A DNA stretch of 35,858 bases, taken from assembly GCA_000998425.1 (NCBI GenBank), contig LCDG01000001.1, forward strand, positions 74,558 to 110,415, given 5' to 3'. The stretch comes from Candidatus Nomurabacteria bacterium GW2011_GWC2_42_20 (GTDB taxonomy: Bacteria > Patescibacteriota > Minisyncoccia > Phycocordibacterales > UBA1550). Positions 4,891-21,857 of the stretch are shown here, one piece after another. Each line of letters starts with the position of its first letter. Positions within the stretch are counted from its first letter, which is position 1. Made by a program: the position numbers and the translations under genes. The notes under the pieces were generated by a model, which ran no database searches, was not told where the DNA came from, and saw nothing but the letters and a program-made list of their open reading frames with translations.

Positions 4891-5187
4891 ATGACATTAA
4901 AAACATTTATTATTGGCGACGCTACTCACACAGGCCTTATTGCGCAAATTGTTGAGCCAGTGATTGGTTTAATGCTCGCTGGCGCCATCTTTTTTTTCAT
5001 CTGGAATGTTTTTAAGGTGATAACGCAGAGTAATAAACCGGATGAGCTAGCGGAGCTCAAATCAAGGGTAATTTGGGGGCTCGTGGCTATCGCTGCTATG
5101 GCATCGGTGTGGGGTCTTGTAAACTTAATACTTGGTTCAACAGGGCTAAATACTGGAGCAGTGATCAACATTAGAACTGGGCCATAG
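4891..5187 (+). CDS. TrbC/VirB2-like pilin family protein (3 of 5)
   Basis: FFIWNVFKVITQSNKPDELAELKSRVIWGLVAIAAMASVWGLVNLI. Confidence 0.7.
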   Translation: MTLKTFIIGDATHTGLIAQIVEPVIGLMLAGAIFFFIWNVFKVITQSNKPDELAELKSRVIWGLVAIAAMASVWGLVNLILGSTGLNTGAVINIRTGP

Positions 5188-5319
5188 TCCAGCTCTAGTT
5201 TCCTTGTATTTTTGTTGTTATTTTTCTATAATATACGCACATACGACCTGTCTATTGTCGTACGAAAGTTATTAATTATTAGTTATCGTTAATTAAAAGT
5301 TTAAATCAGTTTTATTATT

Positions 5320-8533: not shown

Positions 8534-8606
8534 GCGCCCATAGCTCAGTTGGTAGAGCAGCTCGCTCTTAACGAGACGGTCGTAGGTTCGAATCCTACTG
8601 GGCGCA
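8534..8606 (+). tRNA. tRNA-Lys(CTT)
   Basis: gcgccca...tgggcgc+a acceptor, loop ctcttaa; -10 box tataat upstream; no encoded CCA. Confidence 0.93.
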
Positions 8607-8764
8607 CAAGAATAAAAGCTGCAAGATCTAATCCTCGCAGTTTTTATTCCAAAGTAACGCGACCAGTAGAATTTGAACCGAAGGCCCACCATTTTAAAGG
8701 AGCATAGCGACTATTAAAATGGATGGTCTCAACTGCAAGGAGAGGCGAATCCTACTGGGCGCAC
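8607..8764 (+). repeat. tRNA-Lys-associated Direct-Inverted-Direct element
   Basis: Terminator hairpin, inverted T-arm (8663-8682), 34-nt core (8689-8722), 19-nt direct copy of the tRNA 3' end (8746-8764 = 8589-8607). Confidence 0.8.
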
Positions 8765-8774
8765 TGTGTGGAGT

Positions 8775-8856
8775 GCCGGGGTGGCGAAATTGGTAGACGC
8801 ACTTGCCTTAGGAGCAAGCGGGGCGACCCATGGAGGTTCAAGTCCTCTCCCCGGCA
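8775..8856 (+). tRNA. tRNA-Leu(TAG)
   Basis: gccgggg...ccccggc+a; anticodon loop cttagga; long variable arm. Confidence 0.93.
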
Positions 8857-9001
8857 CAATATAAATAAAGACGCCCCTAGTGGGTGTTTTTATTTATATC
8901 TGTGACGGCTTCTGGAGGACTTGAACCGTAGGCTCACCATTTTAAAGGAGCATAGCGACTATTAAAATGGATAGTTTCGACCGTAGGGAGAGGCAAGTCC
9001 T
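8857..9001 (+). repeat. tRNA-Leu(TAG)-associated Direct-Inverted-Direct element, right copy degenerate
   Basis: Inverted T-arm ggaggacttgaacc (8914-8927), same 34-nt core (8937-8970), caagtcct (8994-9001) copy of 8839-8846. Confidence 0.75.
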
Positions 9002-9041
9002 GAATTAGCAAATTCATGCCATGGGCACTCCACAGCACAAT

Positions 9042-9083
9042 AAACAAAAGAACCAAGAACATATGTTCTTGGTTCTTTTGTTT
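9042..9083. terminator. 42-nt perfect palindrome, probable bidirectional terminator
   Basis: aaacaaaagaaccaagaacatatgttcttggttcttttgttt equals its own reverse complement. Confidence 0.8.
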
Positions 9084-9111
9084 GCAAGCTGTTACAATAT
9101 CATTGAAATAT

Positions 9112-10635
9112 ATGAATAAATTTTTCAAACAAAATTTACTACTCATATCTGTGTTTATAACTGGTGCCTGTGTTTTGATTATTGAGGTTGTTGCCGTTAG
9201 GGTGCTATCCCCACATTATGGAAACACTATTTTTACAGTATCTAGTGTAATAAGCGTGGTCCTCGCAGCGTTGAGTATTGGATATTATGTCGGGGGCATG
9301 TTCGCCGACCGCCATCCATCAATGAGGTGGTTCTTTGGGATAATTCTTGTGAGTGGCATTCTTTTACTAACGGTGCATCTTTTAGGGAGGGTGATACTTC
9401 CTATTATGAGCATCAATCTTTCTATAACAATGGGACCTCTGCTTTCTTCCGCTGTACTCTTTTTTCTACCAGCATTATTGTTGGGGACACTGTCTCCATA
9501 TGCGATAAAATTACAAAGTGTTCAGTTCCCAGACCAAGGAGTCGGTGACGTTTCTGGAAAAATCTTTTTTTGGTCAACTCTCGGCAGTATTCTCGGGAGC
9601 CTTCTTTCTGGGTTTGTTCTTATCCCGCATTTTGGCATTGACTATATTTTTATAGCAACAGGTACGACTTTGTTTATTCTCGGATTTGTTCCATTATTAA
9701 TATTTGGACTTGAGAAAAAGCAGCTTTTCAGATCATTATTAATAATTAGCCTCCTTGTTTTTATAGCAATATCCACAGTTCAACAAAAAGTAGATGCTTC
9801 TGTATACAGCAAGGATGGTATTTACGAAAAAATTACCATTTACGACGGTGCATTTAATGAAAGGCCGACAAGATTTTTTCAACAAGACAAAAGTCCGTCT
9901 GCGGCAATGTTCATAGACTCTAATAATCCTACTGATATGGTTTATGAATACACAAGATACTATTCTGTGTATAAACTTTTTAAGCTAGATGTACAAAACG
10001 CCCTCGTCATAGGGGCTGGCGCGTACTCTATCCCCAAAGCGCTTCTTGAGGATCTGCCAAATGCTACCGTAGATGTTTCTGATATAGAACCGTCCTTGTT
10101 TATTTTATCGAAAGGGTATTTTGGATTAGAAGAAAACCAACGATTACATAATCATATAAAAGACGGCCGTCGTTTTCTGAGGGATTCTGATAAAAAATAT
10201 GACCTAATATTTAGTGATGTGTACCACTCACTTTTTTCAATTCCAGTCCATTTCACAACACAGGAATTTTTTACAATCGCAAAGAAGAAGCTTAGCGCAG
10301 ACGGAGTTTTCATTGCAAATGTGGTGGGGGACTTGTCTATGCAACAACCATCTTTTCTTATGGCAGAAATAAGAACATTTCAAAGTGTATTTCCCAATAG
10401 TTATTTTTTCGCTGTTGATGCCACGCAAAAAACAGGTTTACAAAATATTATTTTTGTAGGTTATAACGGTAATAAGAAAATTGATCTATATTCGGATCAA
10501 TTACTCAGTCCGTTCACCGATAAATTGATAAGGATAAAAGAGTTTGATTTATCGCAGTCTCCGCTTCTGACAGATAATTATGCACCAGTTGAGTATTTGT
10601 CTGCAAAATTTCTTCAGCAGGCGCTGGGTAAATAG
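9112..10635 (+). CDS. membrane-anchored spermidine synthase-like protein
   Basis: N-terminal multi-TM, then ALVIGAGAYSIPKALLEDLPNATVDVSDIEP...YDLIFSDVYHSLFSIPVHFTTQEFF. Confidence 0.8.
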   Translation: MNKFFKQNLLLISVFITGACVLIIEVVAVRVLSPHYGNTIFTVSSVISVVLAALSIGYYVGGMFADRHPSMRWFFGIILVSGILLLTVHLLGRVILPIMSINLSITMGPLLSSAVLFFLPALLLGTLSPYAIKLQSVQFPDQGVGDVSGKIFFWSTLGSILGSLLSGFVLIPHFGIDYIFIATGTTLFILGFVPLLIFGLEKKQLFRSLLIISLLVFIAISTVQQKVDASVYSKDGIYEKITIYDGAFNERPTRFFQQDKSPSAAMFIDSNNPTDMVYEYTRYYSVYKLFKLDVQNALVIGAGAYSIPKALLEDLPNATVDVSDIEPSLFILSKGYFGLEENQRLHNHIKDGRRFLRDSDKKYDLIFSDVYHSLFSIPVHFTTQEFFTIAKKKLSADGVFIANVVGDLSMQQPSFLMAEIRTFQSVFPNSYFFAVDATQKTGLQNIIFVGYNGNKKIDLYSDQLLSPFTDKLIRIKEFDLSQSPLLTDNYAPVEYLSAKFLQQALGK

Positions 10636-10647
10636 TGCTTCCATGGG

Positions 10648-10805
10648 ATAGTGTCCGGGATGGGACTCGCCTCTCCTTGCAGTCGAGACCATCCATTTTA
10701 ATAGTCGCTTTGCTCCTTTAAAATGGTGGGCCTTCGGTTCGAGCTCCACACTGATAACATCAAATAATAAAAAAGACAGGGACGTACCCTGCTTTTTTAT
10801 TATAG
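10648..10805 (-). repeat. tRNA-Leu(TAA)-associated Direct-Inverted-Direct element
   Basis: 22-nt atagtgtccgggatgggactcg at 10648-10669 and 10802-10823; core 10693-10726; inverted T-arm 10731-10751. Confidence 0.8.
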
Positions 10806-10886
10806 TGTCCGGGATGGGACTCGAACCCATAAGCCTTACGGCGGGAAATTTTAAGTCTCCTGTGTATACCATTCCACCACCCGGAC
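10806..10886 (-). tRNA. tRNA-Leu(TAA)
   Basis: Reverse complement gtccggg...cccggac+a; loop cttaaaa. Confidence 0.92.
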
Positions 10887-10904
10887 ATATTTAATTGTTT
10901 CTTG

Positions 10905-10976
10905 AGGCGTGGGCGAGAATCGAACTCGCGTGTAGAGGTTTTGCAAACCACTGCCTTACCACTTGGCTACCACGCC
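10905..10976 (-). tRNA. tRNA-Cys(GCA)
   Basis: Reverse complement ggcgtgg...ccacgcc+t; loop tttgcaa; U discriminator. Confidence 0.9.
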
Positions 10977-11067
10977 TTTTATTCAATTGTTAGTAATTAG
11001 ACACTAGTCAATATGGAAGCTCGCTCTCGCTACGCTATTGACTAATGGTTAACACCTATGGTCTATA

Positions 11068-11394
11068 CTATCCTTGTTGACCCAACTCGTCAATTCTTTG
11101 GCGATTGCGCTCGCCCTCATCTATCTTTACCTCAAGTACAGGAAGGTTTTTTAAGTGCGCATGATTCTTGATGTATTCACGGAGTTCAGTGCGCTTCCTC
11201 CTCGCAAAGTCTAGTGCCTTTTCCTCCTCACTTGTAGGGAAGCAGGTGAAATAAATTGTTCCACGTTTGAAATCAGGTGAGATTGTCGCATCTGTTACTG
11301 TGATTAGTGAGTTTTTCCCAGCTTCACGAGTGAAAAAATCTGCGGCTATTGAGCGCAGGAACGCGCGCATCTTATCTTGTCTTGGAGTTGTCAT
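11068..11394 (-). CDS. rbfA: ribosome-binding factor A
   Basis: RbfA-like fold: ITVTDATISPDFKRGTIYFTCFP; located directly after infB. Confidence 0.8.
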   Translation of the reverse strand: MTTPRQDKMRAFLRSIAADFFTREAGKNSLITVTDATISPDFKRGTIYFTCFPTSEEEKALDFARRKRTELREYIKNHAHLKNLPVLEVKIDEGERNRQRIDELGQQG

Positions 11395-11407
11395 AATAGA
11401 TGTTTGA

Positions 11408-12943
11408 TTATTTGGCATTCATAACAAATGCTTCAAGTATGTCTCCCGCGGCAATCTCTATTTTTGCCTCAACCATCATTCCGCACTCGTTGCCTTCCTC
11501 GACCTTCTTCGAGGCAAGTTTTTGTTGCTGTAGGCCCTCAATTTTCCCGCGACCAATTTCTACATCGCGACGCATAATTTTTACTTGCGCGTCAACTTCT
11601 AGGAATCCTGTAGTAACTTTTCCACCAATAACCTGCTTATGCTTTGCTATGCTAAATGTCTTAAGAACTTTTGCGGTTCCAACAACTTCTTCCCCCATAA
11701 TCCTTGGTGTACGATGGTCAAGCTCCTCGTTCAACCATTCAGAAAGTTTATAAATAATATCAAACGTTTTGATTGTTATCCCAAATCTTTCAGCAATATC
11801 TTGCGCGCCACGCTCAACTTTTGTATGGAAGCCGATGATAATAGCGCTATCTGACCCTGAAGCGAGTTTTGCATCGTTTTCTCCAATTGCCCCAACTCCT
11901 TTTGCAATTATTTTTATAAGTACATGCTCGCGCTCTATTTTGCCGATTTCTTTCTCTATTGCTTCGAGAGTTCCTGCAACATCTGATTTAAGCACGATTG
12001 GAACGACAAGAGCATCATCTGATATGGGGGCAGTACGAACTGCTTTTATTGTTGGTGATTTGATTCGTGCTTCTCTAAGTTCAAGCTGTGCCTTTTCAGC
12101 GTCTTTTTTATTTTTATACACACGAAATGTGCTTCCTACTGCTGGGATACTGTCAAATCCAGTAATTAGAATAGGGGATGAAAATGTGGCTTCCGGCACC
12201 TGCTTACCAAGAAAGTTTTCGATTGCGCGAACAGGTGACATGCTTTCCTCCGCAAGGATGAACATCCCCTTTTTTAAGGTGCCGTTAGTAATGATGAGCG
12301 TCGCTGATGTTCCACGCTTTGTATCAATGTTTGATTCTACAACGATACCCTCTGCCGGAAGTGAGGTGTCACCAGTAAGATTTTCCATTTCCGCAACGAG
12401 AAGCATCATGTCTAGCAAATCTGAAACACCGGTGCCAACCTTTGCTGAGATGGGAACAAACGGCACATCGCCACCAAACCCCTCGAGATAAATTTCATTT
12501 TCTGCGAGATTTTGTTTTGTGCGCTCAATGTTTGCGTTTGGTTTGTCGATTTTATTTATAGCGACTATATACGGGATGCCAGCTTCTTTTATAGACTTCA
12601 TTGCTTCCTTTGTTTGTTCTTTTACTCCGTCTTCTGCGGATACGACAAGGATAGCGATATCGGCGACACTTGCGCCACGAGCGCGCATTTTTGAAAAGGC
12701 CTCGTGCCCAGGCGTATCGAGGAAAGTGATACGGTTGCTTGCAAGCCCGTCTTTGCGTGTTTCTGCAGGTTGATGCTCTACTTCATATGCAGAAAGGTGC
12801 TGGGTGATGCCACCAGCTTCACCCTCGACAATATTTGATTTGCGAATGTAATCAAGGAGACTCGACTTACCATGGTCAATGTGTCCCATGATAACAACGA
12901 TGGGTGGGCGTGGGACAATGTTCGGAGAGTTTTGTTTTGTCAT
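11408..12943 (-). CDS. infB: translation initiation factor IF-2 (short form, N-terminal extension absent)
   Basis: GHIDHGKSSLLD, GEAGGITQHL, DTPGHEAF, NKIDKP motifs and C-terminal IF-2 domains. Confidence 0.95.
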   Translation of the reverse strand: MTKQNSPNIVPRPPIVVIMGHIDHGKSSLLDYIRKSNIVEGEAGGITQHLSAYEVEHQPAETRKDGLASNRITFLDTPGHEAFSKMRARGASVADIAILVVSAEDGVKEQTKEAMKSIKEAGIPYIVAINKIDKPNANIERTKQNLAENEIYLEGFGGDVPFVPISAKVGTGVSDLLDMMLLVAEMENLTGDTSLPAEGIVVESNIDTKRGTSATLIITNGTLKKGMFILAEESMSPVRAIENFLGKQVPEATFSSPILITGFDSIPAVGSTFRVYKNKKDAEKAQLELREARIKSPTIKAVRTAPISDDALVVPIVLKSDVAGTLEAIEKEIGKIEREHVLIKIIAKGVGAIGENDAKLASGSDSAIIIGFHTKVERGAQDIAERFGITIKTFDIIYKLSEWLNEELDHRTPRIMGEEVVGTAKVLKTFSIAKHKQVIGGKVTTGFLEVDAQVKIMRRDVEIGRGKIEGLQQQKLASKKVEEGNECGMMVEAKIEIAAGDILEAFVMNAK

Positions 12944-12976
12944 AGAGGTTTATAATATTTAATTTCGAGCAGATAT

Positions 12977-13438
12977 TTATCTTATAGCTTGCTTGACTGC
13001 ACCCTGCTCCTCTTCTGTCATTTCGAACTCAGAAGCGAAGTTTTTGATTGGTTTTGCAAAAATACTCATGCGATCGCGCGCGAACAGGCTTGAGATAACA
13101 GCTCCGTCGCCATTTTCAGAAAGAAGAGCAATGGCAAAACTTTGATTACCACCTTCTCCAGTGCCCTTGAATGCGTTAAATCTGATAGTTTCGACACCCT
13201 GAATGCTTCGCTTGATACGCTTGTCTGCTTCAGCCAGGTAACTTATTGTGTCTGCTTGAAATTTTTCAAGGGCGTGAATGTTTTCACCAAGCTCACAAAT
13301 AGTTCCTTCAAGGCTTTTTGCGTCCTTACCCACTAAAAATTTTTTTAGACGACGCTCAAGCATAAAAACCCATAGCCCCAAAGCCACCGTAGTAGTAGTC
13401 AACGCGATAATGAGGATTTGGGTATCTAGCTGGGTCAT
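12977..13438 (-). CDS. DUF4446-like membrane-anchored protein
   Basis: N-terminal TM, then ETIRFNAFKGTGEGGNQSFAIALLSENGDGAVISSLFARDRMSIFAKPI. Confidence 0.7.
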   Translation of the reverse strand: MTQLDTQILIIALTTTTVALGLWVFMLERRLKKFLVGKDAKSLEGTICELGENIHALEKFQADTISYLAEADKRIKRSIQGVETIRFNAFKGTGEGGNQSFAIALLSENGDGAVISSLFARDRMSIFAKPIKNFASEFEMTEEEQGAVKQAIR

Positions 13439-13508
13439 ACAAGTTGAAAGAGTACCATATTTTTGAGGTTTTTGCAAAAAAAGAACTTGCGGGCTATGAT
13501 TGGCGAAT

Positions 13509-14702
13509 ATGAAGAGAATTTACTTAGACAATGCAGCCGCGACGCCTATAGGAGCGAAATCCTTGAGCACGATGGTAGCAACTACAAAAAAGTTTCCTGG
13601 AAACCCTAGTGGGATTCATAAGGAGGGGAGAGATGCGCGCGCCTTCTTGGAGCGCTCGCGCGGGCAGGTTGCTGGAGTGTTGTTTGCTCGCCCAGATGAA
13701 ATTGTATTTACAAGTGGCGCGACAGAGGCCAACAACATGGCAGTAATTGGTGTGGTGCATTCTGCGCGCACGCGCGGTATCATGAATCCTCATGTTATTG
13801 TTTCGGCAATCGAGCACCCCTCGGTTCTTGAAGCCGCACTCTATCTCAAAAGTAGTGGGGTACGTGTGGATTATCTCCCTGTCGACAGTCGTGGGCTCGT
13901 TAATACAAAGGAAATTCGCAAGCTCATCACACCTGAGACCGTGCTTGTGTCGGTGATGTACGCGAACAATGAGATTGGAACGATTGAGCCCATTATTGAC
14001 ATCGCAAAAGAAGTCCGTCATGCGCGCAAAGTGAATGGGTCAGTGTATCCATACTTCCATACAGACGCAGCACAGGCAGGGAATTATTTAGATATGAACG
14101 TTCTTAAGCTCGGAGTAGACTTAATGACGCTTTCGTCTGGGAAAACATATGGCCCGCGTGGAATAGGCGCATTATTTGTAAAACGTATGGTGGAGATGTG
14201 TCCGCTTATGCACGGAGGTGGTCATGAAGGTAATCGTCGACCAGGAACAGAGCCAGTGGCGCTTGCAGTAGGATTTTCAGTTGCGTTAAAAGAATCGCAA
14301 AGCATAAGAGAAAAAGAATCAAGCCGATTACAGAAACTTCGTGACACACTCGCGACGAAAATTTTAAAGAAAGTTTCAGGTGCTTCTGTGAATGGAAGCT
14401 TAGAACATGGCTTGCCAAATATTCTTAATATTTCATTTGATGGAGTTGAAAGTGAGGCACTCGTGCTTTATCTTGACGCTGCTGGAATCGCAGTGTCTGG
14501 CAAAAGCGCTTGCCGTAGCTCAACTAGCGGGCCGTCTCATGTTATACTTGCTGTAGGAGAATCTGCAGATATGCAGGTTGGTTCAATCCGTTTTTCGCTC
14601 GGTAGTGACACAAAGAGTGAAGATATTGCGCGTGTAGCGAACGAAGTGTCTCGTATTGTGCCGTTACTTCGCGAAGCGCAAGCGCAGAGCGATCAGGTTT
14701 AA
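13509..14702 (+). CDS. cysteine desulfurase (NifS/IscS family)
   Basis: IYLDNAAATP, TSGATEANN, HTDAAQAGNYLDM, SSGKTYGPRGIGAL, SACRSS. Confidence 0.93.
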   Translation: MKRIYLDNAAATPIGAKSLSTMVATTKKFPGNPSGIHKEGRDARAFLERSRGQVAGVLFARPDEIVFTSGATEANNMAVIGVVHSARTRGIMNPHVIVSAIEHPSVLEAALYLKSSGVRVDYLPVDSRGLVNTKEIRKLITPETVLVSVMYANNEIGTIEPIIDIAKEVRHARKVNGSVYPYFHTDAAQAGNYLDMNVLKLGVDLMTLSSGKTYGPRGIGALFVKRMVEMCPLMHGGGHEGNRRPGTEPVALAVGFSVALKESQSIREKESSRLQKLRDTLATKILKKVSGASVNGSLEHGLPNILNISFDGVESEALVLYLDAAGIAVSGKSACRSSTSGPSHVILAVGESADMQVGSIRFSLGSDTKSEDIARVANEVSRIVPLLREAQAQSDQV

Positions 14703-14718
14703 CTTTAAATTAATTATT

Positions 14719-15291
14719 ATGTACGAAGCAAAAAATTTTGAACGACTACTGGGAACAGAAGGTTTTTCTGATGTAATTTTACGTAATCATTTTACCCTTT
14801 ACGAAGGGTATGTTTCTAATATAAATAAAATTTCCGATTTACTAAAGTCGATTGAATTAGGAACGCCAGCATACAATGAACTCAAGCGTCGCTTTGGGTG
14901 GGAGTGGAGTGGAATGCGTTTGCATGAATTATATTTTGGGAACATGGTTATAGGGGGAGGCACAATTGACAATAAGTCGCAATTCGTAAAAAGGATTGTA
15001 GAAGACTTTGGATCTTTTGAGAAATGGGAAAAAGATTTTAAGGCAACCGGCGCGATGCGCGGAATCGGCTGGGTGGTACTGGCGCAGGATCTCGAAAATG
15101 GCCAGCTTTTTAATACGTGGGTAAATGAACATGATGGAGGACATTTAGCAGGAGCTAAAATCATTTTAGTGATGGATGTATTTGAGCACGCGTTTGTACT
15201 AGACTATGGTATTAAACGTGCAGATTATATTTCGTCGTTTTGGAATATCATTGATTGGAATGTGGTAGAGGATCGATTTGCTGGTAACTAG
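14719..15291 (+). CDS. superoxide dismutase, Fe/Mn family
   Basis: LRNHFTLYEGYV, MRLHELYF, VMDVFEHAFVLDYGIKRADYISSFWNIIDW. Confidence 0.88.
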   Translation: MYEAKNFERLLGTEGFSDVILRNHFTLYEGYVSNINKISDLLKSIELGTPAYNELKRRFGWEWSGMRLHELYFGNMVIGGGTIDNKSQFVKRIVEDFGSFEKWEKDFKATGAMRGIGWVVLAQDLENGQLFNTWVNEHDGGHLAGAKIILVMDVFEHAFVLDYGIKRADYISSFWNIIDWNVVEDRFAGN

Positions 15292-15314
15292 CGACTACTG
15301 TATGATGTAGAAAT

Positions 15315-16148
15315 ATGGAGCACCTCACAAAAGCACAAATTGTACTTCTCGCACTCTTCACCAGTTTTGTAGCATCAATGGCAACTGGTATCGTTGTGGT
15401 TACGCTTATGGGGCAAGCCCCAGATCCTGTCACACAGTCAATAACCAATGTCGTTGAGCGTACTATTGAAAAAATAACTCCAACAATTGTTGAAAAACCA
15501 GGAAAGACTGTCGTTGTTAAAGATGAAGATCTAATGGTATCAGCGATTGAGAAAAATTTGAAAAGCGTAGTTTCGTTTAGGGTGGTTGGTCAGGATGGTG
15601 ACCTGCGCCTAGCAGGAGTTGGTACTATAGTGTCTGCTGATGGACTTGTGGTAACAGCAAAAGGTAATTTTGGTGTTGGTGTGCTAACTACAACTATAAA
15701 TGGTATTCAATACGCATTGCAGGTGCTGTCGGATGAAAGAAACAATACACTTGGTTTAGGTCGCCTTACTCCTGTTTCTGCAACAAGCACACCGGTATTT
15801 ACCTCTGTTACACTTGGTAATCCTGATATTTTGAAACTTGGACAAACAGCTATTGTTATAGGCGGTCGTGATGGCAAAACAATCTCAACTGGCCTTGTTG
15901 CAAGTATCGACACGAGGACTGTTGTCGATAAAGATACAAAAGTTGAAACAACAGTTTTAGACAACATAGGTGTTTCTATGAGATTTGCAGGATCATCAAA
16001 CGGAGCCCCAATTATTACACTAAGTGGCGACGTTGTTGGGTTTTTGAACATTGATGAAAATACTGGATCTCAAATAGGAGTCTCAGCAACAGAAGCTAAG
16101 AAAATTATTGATGAGGCTAAGAAGTCAGAAGTCACGAATAAAATATAG
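15315..16148 (+). CDS. HtrA/trypsin-like fold membrane-anchored protein, probably proteolytically inactive
   Basis: GVGTIVSADGLVVTAKGNF aligns with HtrA GxGVI..dGlilTN.HVv without His; catalytic-Ser region reads AGSSNGAPIITLSGDVVGF. Confidence 0.65.
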   Translation: MEHLTKAQIVLLALFTSFVASMATGIVVVTLMGQAPDPVTQSITNVVERTIEKITPTIVEKPGKTVVVKDEDLMVSAIEKNLKSVVSFRVVGQDGDLRLAGVGTIVSADGLVVTAKGNFGVGVLTTTINGIQYALQVLSDERNNTLGLGRLTPVSATSTPVFTSVTLGNPDILKLGQTAIVIGGRDGKTISTGLVASIDTRTVVDKDTKVETTVLDNIGVSMRFAGSSNGAPIITLSGDVVGFLNIDENTGSQIGVSATEAKKIIDEAKKSEVTNKI

Positions 16149-16230
16149 CTAGAAACCAAATAGTATAATACATATTTGACAACATAGAACCACTATTGTA
16201 CATTACGCTTAATATTCATTTAAAATATTT

Positions 16231-18921
16231 ATGATGCCTCCATTCAATAATTTCACAACCAAAGCACGCGATATTATTCGTCGCGCGCATGAGCTTGCGG
16301 TAGAGCGAGGGCAAAACCATGTGAGCCCTATGCATCTTTTGACATCATTAGTGCTAGACGAGGAAAGCATAGTTGTGTCTATTCTTGATAGGCTTGATGT
16401 GGATTCCATGGCTTTTGCAGAGGCTATTCTCGATCTAATAGAGCCTACGACAGCACAAAATGTTGCTTCTGCGTCATATCAGCTCTATCTCACCCCAGAG
16501 TTGGGGCAGGTGCTTGGAGAGATTGCGCCACGTATCGCAGAAGGTATGAAGGATGAGCAAATTTCATGCGAACATTTATTTCTGGCACTTTTTGATGTAG
16601 ACGGACAAGCACGTGAATTTTTGTCTCGCTACAATATTGACCGCGAGAGCGTAGCGCGTGTTCTTGAAGAATTTCGCACGCAAAATATAAACGACAGTAC
16701 GCCATCTAAAAAAATGAAGTCTGTTTATAAATACACACGCAACCTTACCGCTCTTGCAGCACAGGACAAGCTTGACCCTGTTATTGGTCGTGACAATGAA
16801 GTCGGTCGTATTATCCAGATTCTTTCTCGTCGTACAAAAAACAACCCAATCCTTATTGGAGAGGCTGGCGTTGGCAAAACAGCAGTAGTCGAGGGGCTCG
16901 CCATTCGTATGGCAAAAGGTGATGTACCGGAGTCTCTAAAAGACAAAGAGCTAGTTTCTCTTGACCTAGGGCAACTTATCGCTGGCACAAAATACCGTGG
17001 TGAATTTGAAGATCGCTTGAAGAAAATAATGAAAGAGATTGAGCGCTCAGAAGGGAAAATCATACTCTTCATTGATGAGATACACACGATCGTCGGTGCT
17101 GGGGCAGCAGAAGGTTCAATGGATGCTTCAAATATGCTAAAGCCTGCACTTGCGCGCGGAGAACTTCGTGCCATAGGCGCTACAACGCTTCGCGAGTACC
17201 AGAAGCATATTGAAAAGGATCCTGCCCTCACGCGTCGTTTTCAGCCTGTACATGTAAATGAACCATCAACAGAAGACGCCATTGCTATTTTACGCGGACT
17301 TAAGGAAAAATATGAGCTATTTCATGGTGTGCATATTACTGATGATGCAATTATTGCAGCAGTGAATCTTTCTAGTCGTTATATTACAGACCGCTTTTTG
17401 CCAGACAAGGCAGTAGACCTCATTGACGAAGCCGCATCCTCCCTACGTATTTCTCTCGAAAATAAACCACCAGTTCTAGAAGAGGCAGACCGTCGTATTA
17501 TGCGACTTGAGATTGAAAAAGAAGCGCTTAAGAAGGAGGCAGGACTGGAAGGTGATGCAGGTAAAAATGCAAAAGCGCGCACCAAAAAGATTGATAAAGA
17601 AATTGGAGATCTTCGGGAGAAAACTCGCGAGATAGAGCTTAAGTGGAAGAATGAAAAAGAGCTCGTTGTGGATATTCGCTCCATTAAAAAATCTCTTGAA
17701 ACAGCGCGCCTTGAGGCAGAGACCGCAGAAATGAAGGCAGACCTAGCGCTTGCTGCAGAAATTCGCTACGGTCGCATTCCAGGTTTTGAAAAAGATCTTG
17801 CCACAAAAGTTGCGCGTCTGAAAAAACTTCAATCATCTCGTCGTATCTTGAAAGAGGAAGTTGTTGAGCAGGATATTGCGGAAGTTGTCGCAAGGTGGAC
17901 AGGAATCCCTGTTACAAAAATGCTTGAGGAGGAAGCTGGCAAGCTTGCTCACATAGAGGGAGAGTTAGAGAAGCGTGTGGTTGGGCAAAGGGATGCAATC
18001 CAAAAAGTTTCAGATGCTATTAAGCGTTCTCGCGCTGGAATTTCGGACCCAAATCGTCCAATAGGGTCGTTTCTTTTCCTTGGACCAACTGGAGTTGGCA
18101 AGACGGAACTTTCGAAGGCTCTCGCACAGTTTATGTTCAACGATGATAAGGCGCTTGTTCGAGTAGATATGTCAGAATACATGGAGAAGCATTCAGTCTC
18201 AAAGCTTATCGGCTCTCCCCCAGGATATGTTGGACACGAAGAAAGTGGCAACCTTACAGAGACCGTTCGTCACCGACCATACTCCGTACTCCTTTTTGAT
18301 GAGATCGAAAAAGCTCACCCAGAAGTATTTAACATCCTTCTTCAGGTTCTTGATAACGGTCATCTTACTGACTCTAAGGGGCGTGTTGTAAACTTCAAAA
18401 ACACGGTCATTATCCTGACCTCTAATATTGGTTCAGAGTATATCGATAAAATGCAGTCGATTGGTTTTGGTACACACGCAAGCGACAAGGCTGATTATTC
18501 TGATGCGAAGGATCGTGTAATGGGATCACTTAAGGATTTCTTCCGCCCAGAGTTTTTGAACCGCCTTGATGAAATTGTCATTTTTGATATTTTGTCGCCA
18601 GAAGTTATTCAGAGTATTGTTGGATTGCAAGTTGATATCATAAAGAAACGTCTTGCGGAAAAGGAGATTGTTCTAAATGTTACACCAGAAGTTCTGACAT
18701 ACCTTGCAGATAAAGGGTATGATTCGCATTATGGGGCTCGTCCGCTCAAACGCTTGATACAGAGCAAGATTTTGACACCAGTAGCAAGCTTGATGATTTC
18801 GTCAGGTGTCCTAAAAGGTGGTCGTGTTCAAGTGTCAGTAGAGAAGGGCGAGATTTCTATACGTGTTGAAAAGAAGCAAGTAACAACAAAACCACGCACC
18901 AGATCAAAAGTTGGAGCCTAG
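16231..18921 (+). CDS. clpB: ClpB-type AAA+ disaggregase
   Basis: Two AAA modules ([18 protein letters not shown]) with ClpB-like M domain ([18 protein letters not shown]) between them. Confidence 0.88.
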
Positions 18922-18992
18922 AGTGAGGTTGATGTGAGATAAAAAAAGTGATAGAGTGAGCAAGCGCCTTTAAAAGGTGTGTTTGCTCAAAT

Positions 18993-19075
18993 GCGTCGGT
19001 GGTGGAGTGGTCAATCACAACAGACTGTAAATCTGTCGGCTTCGGCCTTCGAAGGTTCGAATCCTTCCCGGCGCA
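18993..19075 (+). tRNA. tRNA-Tyr(GTA)
   Basis: gcgtcgg...ccggcgc+a; loop ctgtaaa; long variable arm. Confidence 0.92.
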
Positions 19076-19290
19076 CAAAATAAATGAACCCATTCCGGAA
19101 AGGGCTGGGTGATTTTATTTTGTATCTGACGGAAGGGATTCGAACCGCCGGCCGCAGTCCACGAAGAGGGGACGTAGGTTTCGAGCGCACCAGCGCGAGG
19201 GGCGAATCCTTCCCGGCGCACAAACCACAAACAAAGAAAGCACCCTTTTTGGGTGTTTTTTGTTTTTCGAGGCTGGATTTGAGCCTTGGT
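19076..19290 (+). repeat. tRNA-Tyr-associated Direct-Inverted-Direct element plus second terminator and degenerate inverted T-arm
   Basis: cgaatccttcccggcgcacaaa at 19058-19079 and 19203-19224; inverted ggaagggattcgaaccgccgg at 19131-19151; ggatttgagccttgg near 19275. Confidence 0.78.
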
Positions 19291-19417
19291 GATTAGAAAA
19301 TCATGATGTGAGGCAAAATGGTAGCCATGCAAAAAATGTTTGACAAAATATTCTCATCGTGTGATGCTATAAAGAGTAGTACTTTCACAGGTTAAAACAA
19401 CACATTGGGAGAATATA

Positions 19418-20062
19418 ATGGAAGAAGAAAAGGTATACGTGACACAGGGGTTTATTGAAAAATTTGCTACCTTGTTTGCAGATGACAATTCGTCGTTTGG
19501 AGACATTGCGAAGCTTTTAGTTTTTCAACCTCGCCTTGTTGTTCGGCTCTTGCATGTAGCAAATCATATGTGTACATGCCACGGTTCATTCAAAAGGCCT
19601 ACGACTGTTCAGGGTATCATAAATATCCTTGGATTCGGTAGGGTGGAGGATGAAATCAATCTTATTGAATATGCGCCACTGCATGAGGAGCGCAAGGTAT
19701 TAAATCAGGCAATAAGTTGCTATGTCCTAGCATCGGTGTATGCATCTATCGCTGAGCAGGTGTTTGGGAAGAAAAAAGCGCCAGAGCATTTTTTAGCTGG
19801 TCTTATTGCCCCTCTCGTAGAGGAGGACAACTCAATACTTTACGAATGTAACGACGAACTGAAGGGCTATTTTAACCCTAACTATGCGCATGGAATGCAA
19901 ATTGAAGGGTTGTCAACTATTGCGCACGTAAAAGAGCTCACTAAAGGTTTTGAAAAAGGAATCAATTCATTTGATACAGGACATCTTTACACTACTTGGG
20001 ATGAAGCGAGAAGGAACGCTCGCGCAACACTTATTGTGTATTCTGGTGGCTATGCGGAATAG
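19418..20062 (+). CDS. divergent HDOD-like domain protein
   Basis: FGDIAKLLVFQPRLVVRLLHVANHM...RPTTVQGIINILGFGRVEDEI matches the HDOD pattern (DP.L..rlL..aNs...ItSi..AI..LG...l). Confidence 0.5.
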   Translation: MEEEKVYVTQGFIEKFATLFADDNSSFGDIAKLLVFQPRLVVRLLHVANHMCTCHGSFKRPTTVQGIINILGFGRVEDEINLIEYAPLHEERKVLNQAISCYVLASVYASIAEQVFGKKKAPEHFLAGLIAPLVEEDNSILYECNDELKGYFNPNYAHGMQIEGLSTIAHVKELTKGFEKGINSFDTGHLYTTWDEARRNARATLIVYSGGYAE

Positions 20063-20083
20063 CCAGTGAAAATGAAATAACTT

Positions 20084-20112
20084 AAGACGGGTGATAATTC
20101 ACCCGTCTTTTT
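20084..20112 (+). terminator. Rho-independent terminator
   Basis: aagacgggtgataattcacccgtcttttt. Confidence 0.8.
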
Positions 20113-20166
20113 CTTTATTGACCGATTCTTGCCTTTTCTGACAGGGTGTAGTAGGATAGGGAAACT

Positions 20167-20325
20167 ATGTCACAGGATCAACTTATCAAACTCGCCTGCA
20201 AGAAATGCAAGCGCGTAAACTATTGGACTCGCAAGAACAAAAAGCTTGTTGAGCGTAAGATTGAGCTCGATAAATTCTGCAATTCCTGCCGAGCTCATAC
20301 ATCTCACAAGGAAGCAAAAAAATAA
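20167..20325 (+). CDS. rpmG: 50S ribosomal protein bL33
   Basis: MSQDQLIKLACKKCKRVNYWTRKNKKLVERKIELDKFCNSCRAHTSHKEAKK; two Cys pairs and NYWTRKNK; not in the supplied ORF track. Confidence 0.9.
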   Translation: MSQDQLIKLACKKCKRVNYWTRKNKKLVERKIELDKFCNSCRAHTSHKEAKK

Positions 20326-20342
20326 AAACCGCGTTTTCAGTA

Positions 20343-20368
20343 AAAAGCCCTCATCGGGGCTTTTGTTT
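20343..20368 (+). terminator. Rho-independent terminator
   Basis: aaaagccctcatcggggctttt. Confidence 0.75.
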
Positions 20369-20388
20369 TATATGATATGCTAAATGGT

Positions 20389-21498
20389 ATGAAAGCAGAG
20401 CACAAAGGGCTACGAACATGGATTGAAATTGACACGAAGGCAGTCCGTGCCAACTATCGGACTTTCAGAAAGATTATACCCAAAAAAGTCAGCATGCTTG
20501 GTGTTGTGAAGTCCAATGCGTATGGTCACTCCATTGTTGAGTATTCGCGCGAGCTAGAAAAACTTGGAATTGATATGTTGGCTGTTGATTCGCTTGTGGA
20601 GGCGCTAGTAATCAGAAATAGCGGAATCAAGACACCAGTGCTCGTTCTTGGGTACACTTTGCCAGAAATGTTTACAAAAGCACTCCGCAAAAATATTCAC
20701 CTTACTATTTCAAGCATTGACGGTCTAAAAACTTTTTTAAAAACTCCATTAGCAAATATAATCCCTATTCACCTCAAGGTAGACACAGGAATGCATAGGC
20801 AAGGATTCCTTCTGTCAGAGCTCAAAAAAGTTTTAAAAATTATTGCTGCAGAAAAAATAAATGTTGCCGGCTTGTATACACATTTTGCATCTGCAAAAGA
20901 CCCAAACGAACGTGTGTTTACAAAAGGACAGATCGCGGAATTTGAAACATGGCGCTCAGCGCTATGTTTAGCTGGGTTTACGCCAATGGCGCACGCTAGT
21001 GCGACTGGGGGGAGTTTGTATTTTAACGAGGCGCACTACGATATGGTTCGCATTGGCGCCGGACTCTATGGGTTTTGGCCATATGGTAAGAATTTTTTTA
21101 CCAAGCCTGTACTCTCATGGAAAACAATTGTTTCCGAAATAAAAGGAATACCAGATGGTGCCTGTGTTGGCTATGACTTTACTTACAAGGCTAAAAAAGC
21201 CACACGAATTGCAGTTTGTCCTATTGGTTACTGGCACGGATATCCGCGAGTACTCTCAAATAATTCTGAGGTGCTCGTGCGAGGAAAGCGAGCAAAGGTT
21301 TTAGGTCGCGTGTCAATGGATATGATTGTCATTGATATTACAAATATTCCACATGTGAAAATTGGGGACGAGGTTGTACTAATAGGACAATCTGGGAAGG
21401 AAGAAATTAGCGCTAATGAAATCGCTGAGAGAGCAGATACCTCTGCCTACGAAATACTCACATGCCTAAATCCGCTAATGAAGCGCATATATAAATAA
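20389..21498 (+). CDS. alr: alanine racemase
   Basis: WIEIDTKAVRANYR, VVKSNAYGH, VRIGAGLYG, GRVSMDMIVIDIT. Confidence 0.93.
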   Translation: MKAEHKGLRTWIEIDTKAVRANYRTFRKIIPKKVSMLGVVKSNAYGHSIVEYSRELEKLGIDMLAVDSLVEALVIRNSGIKTPVLVLGYTLPEMFTKALRKNIHLTISSIDGLKTFLKTPLANIIPIHLKVDTGMHRQGFLLSELKKVLKIIAAEKINVAGLYTHFASAKDPNERVFTKGQIAEFETWRSALCLAGFTPMAHASATGGSLYFNEAHYDMVRIGAGLYGFWPYGKNFFTKPVLSWKTIVSEIKGIPDGACVGYDFTYKAKKATRIAVCPIGYWHGYPRVLSNNSEVLVRGKRAKVLGRVSMDMIVIDITNIPHVKIGDEVVLIGQSGKEEISANEIAERADTSAYEILTCLNPLMKRIYK

Positions 21499-21551
21499 TT
21501 CCATTTTTGCGAGGCTTTTGGTATACTCCGATTTGTAAGATAGAAACAAAA

Positions 21552-21622
21552 GGGCCTATAGTTCAGTGGTAGAATATCGCACTCCAAACGCGCAGACCGA
21601 GGTTCGAGTCCTCGTGGGCCCG
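21552..21622 (+). tRNA. tRNA-Trp(CCA)
   Basis: gggccta...tgggccc+g; loop ctccaaa; G discriminator. Confidence 0.85.
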
Positions 21623-21857
21623 CAGTAACAAAGCCCAGATACGAATGTATCTGGGCTTTGTTGTTACTGCGTGGCCCACGAGGACTCGAAGACCGCAGGC
21701 GGGGCACCCAGTGTAATCGCTGGGTCGCCGAGGTGGGTCCGCGAGTACTTATGAGTGAAACGAATTAGTAACTCGGGGACGCGTCCTCGTTTCTTGTCAC
21801 CCAAACACGATAGTGCTTGGGTCTTGTTGTCATTGCGAGACACACGAGGACTCCGCC
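21623..21857 (+). repeat. tRNA-Trp-associated Direct-Inverted-Direct-(terminator)-Inverted element
   Basis: Long palindrome around gatacgaatgtatc spanning the T-arm; inverted copy 21671-21693; degenerate direct copy 21780-21790; second terminator about 21799-21825 and second inverted copy 21842-21857. Confidence 0.78.

Follow-up and report, generated by a model that had tools for sequence, protein, structure and literature searches.

A putative family of small elements with target-matched guides at the 3' ends of tRNA, tmRNA and topA genes in Patescibacteria

Tyrosine-integrase islands in tRNA genes (tDNA islands; Islander, PMC4383910) target the 3' end of a tRNA, tmRNA or protein gene, restore the target gene and leave the displaced fragment at their far end. 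IS110 elements have a bridge RNA (PMC11208160), a structured segment in which a fixed pair of loops serves as a guide matching the target around the insertion junction. Repetitive extragenic palindromic (REP) sequences, with their RAYT genes, are small hairpin elements of intergenic DNA, and in group I introns and trans-splicing ribozymes a guide spanning the junction is followed by a folded core and then by the 3' exon. Each of these resembles in part an element that follows five tRNA genes in a 35,858-nucleotide stretch (the window) of Candidatus Nomurabacteria bacterium GW2011_GWC2_42_20 (contig LCDG01000001.1, positions 74,558 to 110,415). The element looks like an undescribed one that tailors a guide to each gene it occupies. 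We favor, with a probability of roughly 0.6, a Patescibacteria-wide family of small, non-autonomous, horizontally moving elements at the 3' ends of tRNA, tmRNA and topA genes.

Each of the nearest described kinds fails to accommodate the element on a defining property. As in tDNA islands, a duplicated target 3' end surrounds the insert (direct copies 1 and 2, at tRNA genes and at topA), but the element is ~100-300 bp long and geneless, contains a guide in inverted orientation along with a conserved folded core, and places the same core at many targets in genomes that usually have a single Xer-type recombinase; it bears no integrase, and the high-copy genome of relative G001 has no extra one. 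Its guide is one contiguous stretch copied per target, unlike the fixed pair of loops in IS110, and its target-copied arms have no counterpart in REP sequences. In contrast to group I introns, the present element is ~100 nt, its cores have no group I match and its junction lacks a U.G; Rfam model RF00028 did not match the cores, although it did match real introns at locus L143. There, group I introns lie beside tRNA exons (L143:599-803 and 2015-2238), and one interrupted tRNA end (GCCGGTTCGATTCCGGC) is followed by an element. Rfam scans of the cores at the gathering score and at permissive E-values returned only tRNA, tmRNA and group I introns as relevant models and matched the cores to no family, and a search of open-licence papers found no description of the element, in agreement with the initial annotation, which had not recognized it as described. 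To our knowledge, hepatitis delta virus (HDV)-like theta ribozymes do not typically contain an inverted copy of a tRNA. These are described (PMC10879173) as structured RNAs beside tRNA 3' ends in a phage context, whereas the present element is chromosomal and was not matched to them in the Rfam scans.

Layout, folded core and guide

The tRNA genes of the window were called with ARAGORN and Rfam, and direct and inverted copies were located by repeat search and reading, with 60 shuffles as a control. Eight tRNA genes were found, as in the initial annotation, and the layout it had described at five of them was recovered. After tRNA-Lys(CTT), Leu(TAG), Leu(TAA), Tyr(GTA) and Trp(CCA), the order is tRNA 3' end (direct copy 1), hairpin, inverted copy, folded core and direct copy 2; the same search and controls found no direct and inverted copies downstream of Cys, Leu(CAA) and Ala. 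Both copies score above all 60 shuffles at Lys and Tyr, and at least one of the two does so at Leu(TAG), Leu(TAA) and Trp. Start-to-start spacing of the direct copies is 157 bp at Lys, 154 bp at Leu(TAA) and 145 bp at Tyr by repeat search, and ~154 bp at Leu(TAG) and ~175 bp at Trp by reading, matching the 145-175 bp first reported. The claim of a second direct copy of the tRNA 3' end stood only in part, because copy 2 is full-length (C56 to C74) only in Lys, Leu(TAA) and Tyr and is reduced to 8-11 nt of the T-loop/T-stem in Leu(TAG) and Trp. The inverted T-arm copy is present at all five loci, as claimed, but is imperfect at Lys and Leu(TAA). Two core subfamilies are represented, with Trp belonging to the R1 type and the other four to a second type (A4). 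The Lys and Leu(TAA) elements share 96% core identity over 78 nt while their arms differ, each matching its own tRNA, which bears out the statement that every element carries the sequence of its host tRNA.

On the plus strand, tRNA-Lys(CTT) (8534..8607; ARAGORN, Rfam), whose 3' end is direct copy 1, is followed by a trailer with a terminator-like hairpin recognized from the sequence (8609..8650), the imperfect inverted copy or guide (8659..8679), a core of the second subfamily forming a hairpin with the tandem G.A apical motif GGAGC-AUA-GCGAC (8680..8745; z -3.6) and a direct copy 2 identical at 19/19 positions (8746..8764). Next on this strand is tRNA-Leu(TAG) (8775..8857; ARAGORN), with a terminator-like hairpin (8859..8899; repeat search, I4), a 13/13 inverted T-arm copy (8915..8927), a second-subfamily core of 86-88% identity to the Lys core (8928..8991) and a direct copy 2 of the T-part only (8987..9001; identity CAAGTCCT). 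The Leu(TAA) element lies on the minus strand, where the tRNA (10805..10886; ARAGORN) precedes a terminator-like hairpin seen in the sequence (10763..10802), the imperfect inverted T-arm copy (10736..10748), the second-subfamily core (10670..10735) and a 22/22 direct copy 2 (10648..10669; repeat search, D4); tRNA-Cys(GCA) on the same strand (10904..10976), separated from Leu(TAA) by a 17-nt gap, is an empty site. Back on the plus strand, tRNA-Tyr(GTA) (18993..19076; ARAGORN) is followed by a terminator-like hairpin (19075..19123; repeat search, I9), an inverted copy of its 3' end (19130..19146) and a direct copy 2 (19198..19221), both from the repeat search, on either side of a second-subfamily core (19147..19197) whose shorter form is common to a Thr element of relative G003 and a Met element of G002. 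A second terminator-like hairpin, recognized from the sequence, stands past this direct copy 2 (19230..19266). At tRNA-Trp(CCA) (plus strand, 21552..21623; ARAGORN, Rfam), a perfect hairpin (21627..21662) forms one long palindrome together with the trailer and the tRNA 3' end (repeat search, I5, I3 and I11). It is followed by an 18/18 complementary inverted copy (21673..21690; I3), the R1-type three-way-junction core (21676..21795; 94.8 bits as part of the training set, z -4.4), a direct copy 2 of the T-part only (21780..21790) and a partial second unit made of a second hairpin and a second inverted copy (21800..21853; D3), 74% identical to 21634-21687.

Aligned cores form a three-way junction in which P1 is the inverted copy paired with direct copy 2, P2 is GNC-GGA...GAG-NC and P3 is GGUC...GACC with a tandem G.A motif; the second subfamily, to which four of the five window elements belong, has the same apical G.A motif. 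Across 122 distinct sequences, in an alignment that was fitted to the model and so leans towards structure, 92.8% of cells were paired and double changes occurred in all 27 pairs, numbering 647 against 185 in shuffled alignments (0/500). Pairing reached 96-98% in P2 and P3 and 83% in P1, and G-U mismatches outnumbered A-C mismatches on the sense strand (51 vs 28), a weak pointer to that strand. The core is a structured, RNA-like fold with covariation beyond shuffles, and it would act as RNA or as single-stranded DNA. Many copies have an extra hairpin (P1h) within the inverted copy, at the acceptor/T-stem boundary and often with a CUGC loop, and elements without the terminator hairpin occur (L147, L154).

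The inverted copy behaves as a target-specific guide. In 69% of 101 elements it agrees with its own tRNA's T-arm at no fewer than 11 of the 12 positions compared, as against 1.9% for other tRNAs. Elements preselected for a recognizable guide provide 73 cells in which the tRNA and direct copy 2 disagree; the guide pairs with the tRNA in all of them and with copy 2 alone in none, so that it tracks the functional gene copy. A maintained helix between the inverted copy and direct copy 2 was rejected, with 0 compensatory cases in the 73 informative cells. Direct copy 2 is shortened or decayed in many tRNA elements, and some inverted copies are in another register, at the acceptor end (e.g. L137:1371 and L039:16441).

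Distribution, targets and occupied sites

In the 679-kb source genome, ~14 of ~38 tRNAs carry the full or partial layout, according to a tRNA scan with shuffled controls. Beyond the window these are Leu(GAG), Arg(TCT), Lys(TTT), with two tandem units, Arg(TCG) and Val(GAC), and a degenerate layout follows Met, Phe and Ile. A scan of 84,980 genomes for the exact pattern of one hairpin (P3) gave 25 matches, all in genomes with Patescibacteria-type titles (Yonathbacteria, Kaiserbacteria and Nomurabacteria among others) or in untitled bacterial metagenome-assembled genomes; 21 of them follow a tRNA on the same strand at 73-674 nt, and the remainder are at contig ends or beside masked bases. A covariance model of the core (R1), which had the Trp element among its training sequences, found the element in 38/41 genomes of the same order and in 41/380 genomes sampled across Patescibacteria, confirming the recurrence in relatives on which the initial annotation had made its reading depend. 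Copies per genome range from 0 to 29, the upper figure coming from relative G001 with permissive settings. Nearly all matches closely follow a tRNA or tmRNA, and the topA 3' end is a recurrent further site. In G001, 21 of the 29 are at most 400 nt behind a tRNA among those listed; the others include two behind tmRNA, one behind an unlisted tRNA, one that follows a tRNA at a distance of 470 nt and two that adjoin masked bases. Seventeen of 18 distant loci inspected are behind a tRNA, and the displaced copy reaches the encoded CCA in several. One relative has a cluster of Cys, Leu(TAA), Lys(CTT), Leu(TAG) and Leu(CAG) with a separate element behind each tRNA (L130; G015 C19).

The description of the element as tRNA-targeting holds insofar as tRNAs are the main targets, but not as exclusive, since tmRNA and the protein gene topA are also occupied; one element, in G030, is behind rplL. 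R1 matches without a tRNA were traced to topA, and the element lies directly 3' of that gene at 8 of the 20 relatives' loci fetched. The topA guide is GTCTTCGTG or GTTTTTGTG, varying with the codons of the adjoining topA; that of G002 agrees with copy 1 and not with copy 2. Copy 2 begins right after the conserved GUGACC in tRNA and topA elements alike. Duplicated topA ends in five genomes have 12, 17, 9, 12 and 4 differences per 60 nt, which fall 7/2/45 on the three codon positions; because 45 of the 54 are at position 3, both copies must have diverged as coding sequence. This fits acquisition from another lineage, as with islands that restore their target gene. Displaced topA tails resemble element-free relatives (copy 2 of G007 has LNKPE, like G004 and G011). 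Copy-2 ends are often open with few amino-acid changes, and they are truncated or decayed in G005 and G009.

Cores up to 95% identical adjoin different tRNAs, and vertical inheritance per tRNA was rejected because mean core identity at the same tRNA across genomes is not clearly higher (0.41 vs 0.39). The Cys-Leu(TAA) site, empty (17 nt) in the source genome, is occupied in relatives G013, G015 and G029; in G013 the element is followed by a second tRNA-Cys end and then by a flank, AAGAAACAATTAAATA, that matches the empty site. Within one genus, some orthologous tRNAs have the element and some do not. Tandem units also occur, and behind a tRNA-Arg(TCG) at L160:1501-1746 there are 131-bp head-to-tail units that each bear a tRNA end including CCA. 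The recurrence, the occupied and empty orthologous sites and the cores common to different tRNAs support the mini-mobile element that the initial annotation had offered as one option.

Proposed mobility and alternative explanations

The anatomy of the elements and the sharing of cores between targets are established by the comparisons above. A full copy begins with the gene 3' end (the functional direct copy 1), a variable trailer or terminator hairpin and an optional P1h with a CUGC loop, and continues with the guide, P2, P3 ending in GUGACC and the displaced gene 3' end (direct copy 2). The guide, of 9-12 nt or more, is the reverse complement of the target across the insertion junction, covering 3 nt before it and at least 7 after; the junction lies in the T-loop of tRNAs (TTC|GANTCC) and at CAC|GAAGAC or CAC|AAAAAC in topA. 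In the mode of movement that we propose, incoming DNA would supply a replacement 3' end, restoring the gene and displacing the old end, and guide-target pairing may direct or maintain insertion. Occupied alleles could spread between species by natural transformation and then recombination via the duplicated 3' ends, but this possible route does not account for a core gaining a guide to a new gene, for which templated copying of the target at insertion and guide-directed insertion are candidates. It is unlikely, though conceivable, that a new kind of guide-directed element, a three-way-junction RNA or single-stranded DNA of ~100 nt with its guide copied per gene end, works with no protein of its own, either directing its own insertion or exchanging the 3' ends of tRNA, tmRNA and topA transcripts.

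None of four candidates, reverse transcriptase, IS110 recombinase, REP transposase or a dedicated integrase, has support as a common mobilizer. The reverse transcriptase family PF00078 is absent from G001 (29 copies, 99% complete), G013, G012 and G015, and a DEDD IS110 recombinase was present in 2/41 genomes and in none of the other 39, high-copy ones included. Y1 genes occur more often in element-rich genomes (p 0.007), but for Y1/RAYT the correlation with copy number is weak and no element stood beside the Y1 genes inspected. RAYT-like genes at L164, L165, L169 and L176-L180 lie between their own short near-perfect palindromes (e.g. GTGAAGGTCNNACCTTCAC), which are a separate REP-type system in these genomes. 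G001, G013 and G000 have one PF00589 gene each, with none extra in high-copy G001, and the element itself has no room for an open reading frame.

Several points weigh against a mobile family. No mobilizing enzyme was identified among the families searched, and elements were not found on the plasmids, phages and viral contigs searched (the viral contigs with one pattern only). The evidence for movement is comparative, drawn from sites and cores. At Asp(GTC), the tRNA-adjacent hairpin, and not the displaced one, resembles the empty-site terminator, so that a later deletion or a different insertion polarity would be needed. Agreement with the functional copy is also better for the guide than for the displaced copy, which suggests some constraint or templated correction after insertion. 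Because of this tracking we retain as a rival, though an unlikely one, a cis-acting RNA that regulates or checks how the transcript upstream of it matures, its guide pairing either with the T-arm and acceptor of the nascent tRNA or with the second copy and so switching the precursor between two folds. The pairing of guide and gene copy in 73/73 informative cells, the conserved RNA structure with its G-U over A-C mismatches and the constant position downstream on the same strand are as this control, also raised in the initial annotation, would have them, but the patchy distribution, among genomes and among orthologous tRNAs of one genus, and the swapping of cores between tRNAs are not. The element is also often behind a terminator-like hairpin, and a topA mRNA target misfits tRNA maturation.

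Less probable still is exchange of 3' ends at the RNA level, in which a small splicing-like or trans-splicing-like RNA would use the guide to align the gene-to-junction stretch with copy 2, which would replace the first end. The guide does complement the target across the junction, like an internal guide sequence, copy 2 starts exactly after GUGACC and reaches an encoded CCA in several distant relatives, and the topA copy-2 ends are often open; yet many tRNA elements and two topA loci have a shortened or decayed copy 2, the Rfam group I intron models do not match the cores and the junction lacks a U.G, and the topA pattern is equally explained by horizontal origin. Replication template switching at terminator palindromes (quasi-palindrome formation), with no mobile element, is the least credible account. 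It would produce the continuous palindrome of tRNA 3' end, trailer, hairpin and inverted copy, which is perfect in Trp, and could keep the guide matched to the tRNA, but it leaves unexplained the recurrent CUGC-loop P1h, the terminator-less elements and the mainly synonymous topA duplications. Since the core is a covarying structure conserved phylum-wide, template switching is largely refuted and, contrary to one option in the initial annotation, is not supported as the sole cause; it may act secondarily on the arms.

If the family of moving elements is real, a large share of the DNA that follows tRNA genes in a major and mainly uncultured phylum belongs to a mobile class that recognizes its targets by a copied antisense guide. 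Such elements would insert specifically at gene ends with little involvement of proteins, would contribute to the turnover of tRNA loci in minimal genomes and might offer a new programmable system, and the mobilization of DNA in genomes with almost no transposases would become testable.

Orphan elements and minor features

Orphan elements with tRNA-His-like arms and no recognizable upstream tRNA occur at L132:971-1097 and 5083-5207 and at L116:1026-1144. The orphan His-arm element on contig C4 of G001 was considered as the end of a large island, and this was rejected, as no tRNA-His was found on the 19-kb stretch. Behind tRNA-Ile(TAT) of G000 (C7, L048:677-1100), the 3' half of tRNA-Ile is present in several copies broken up by small AGCA-loop hairpins, apparently the same element in decay or arranged differently. 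A weak R1 match (24.6 bits) over the smpB 3' end, upstream of tmRNA (L108:977-1073), is probably due to chance. In the window, a perfect 42-nt palindrome (9042-9083, AAACAAAAGAACCAAGAACAT/ATGTTCTTGGTTCTTTTGTTT) lies directly 3' of the Leu(TAG) element, overlaps the start of a listed open reading frame and is probably a terminator.

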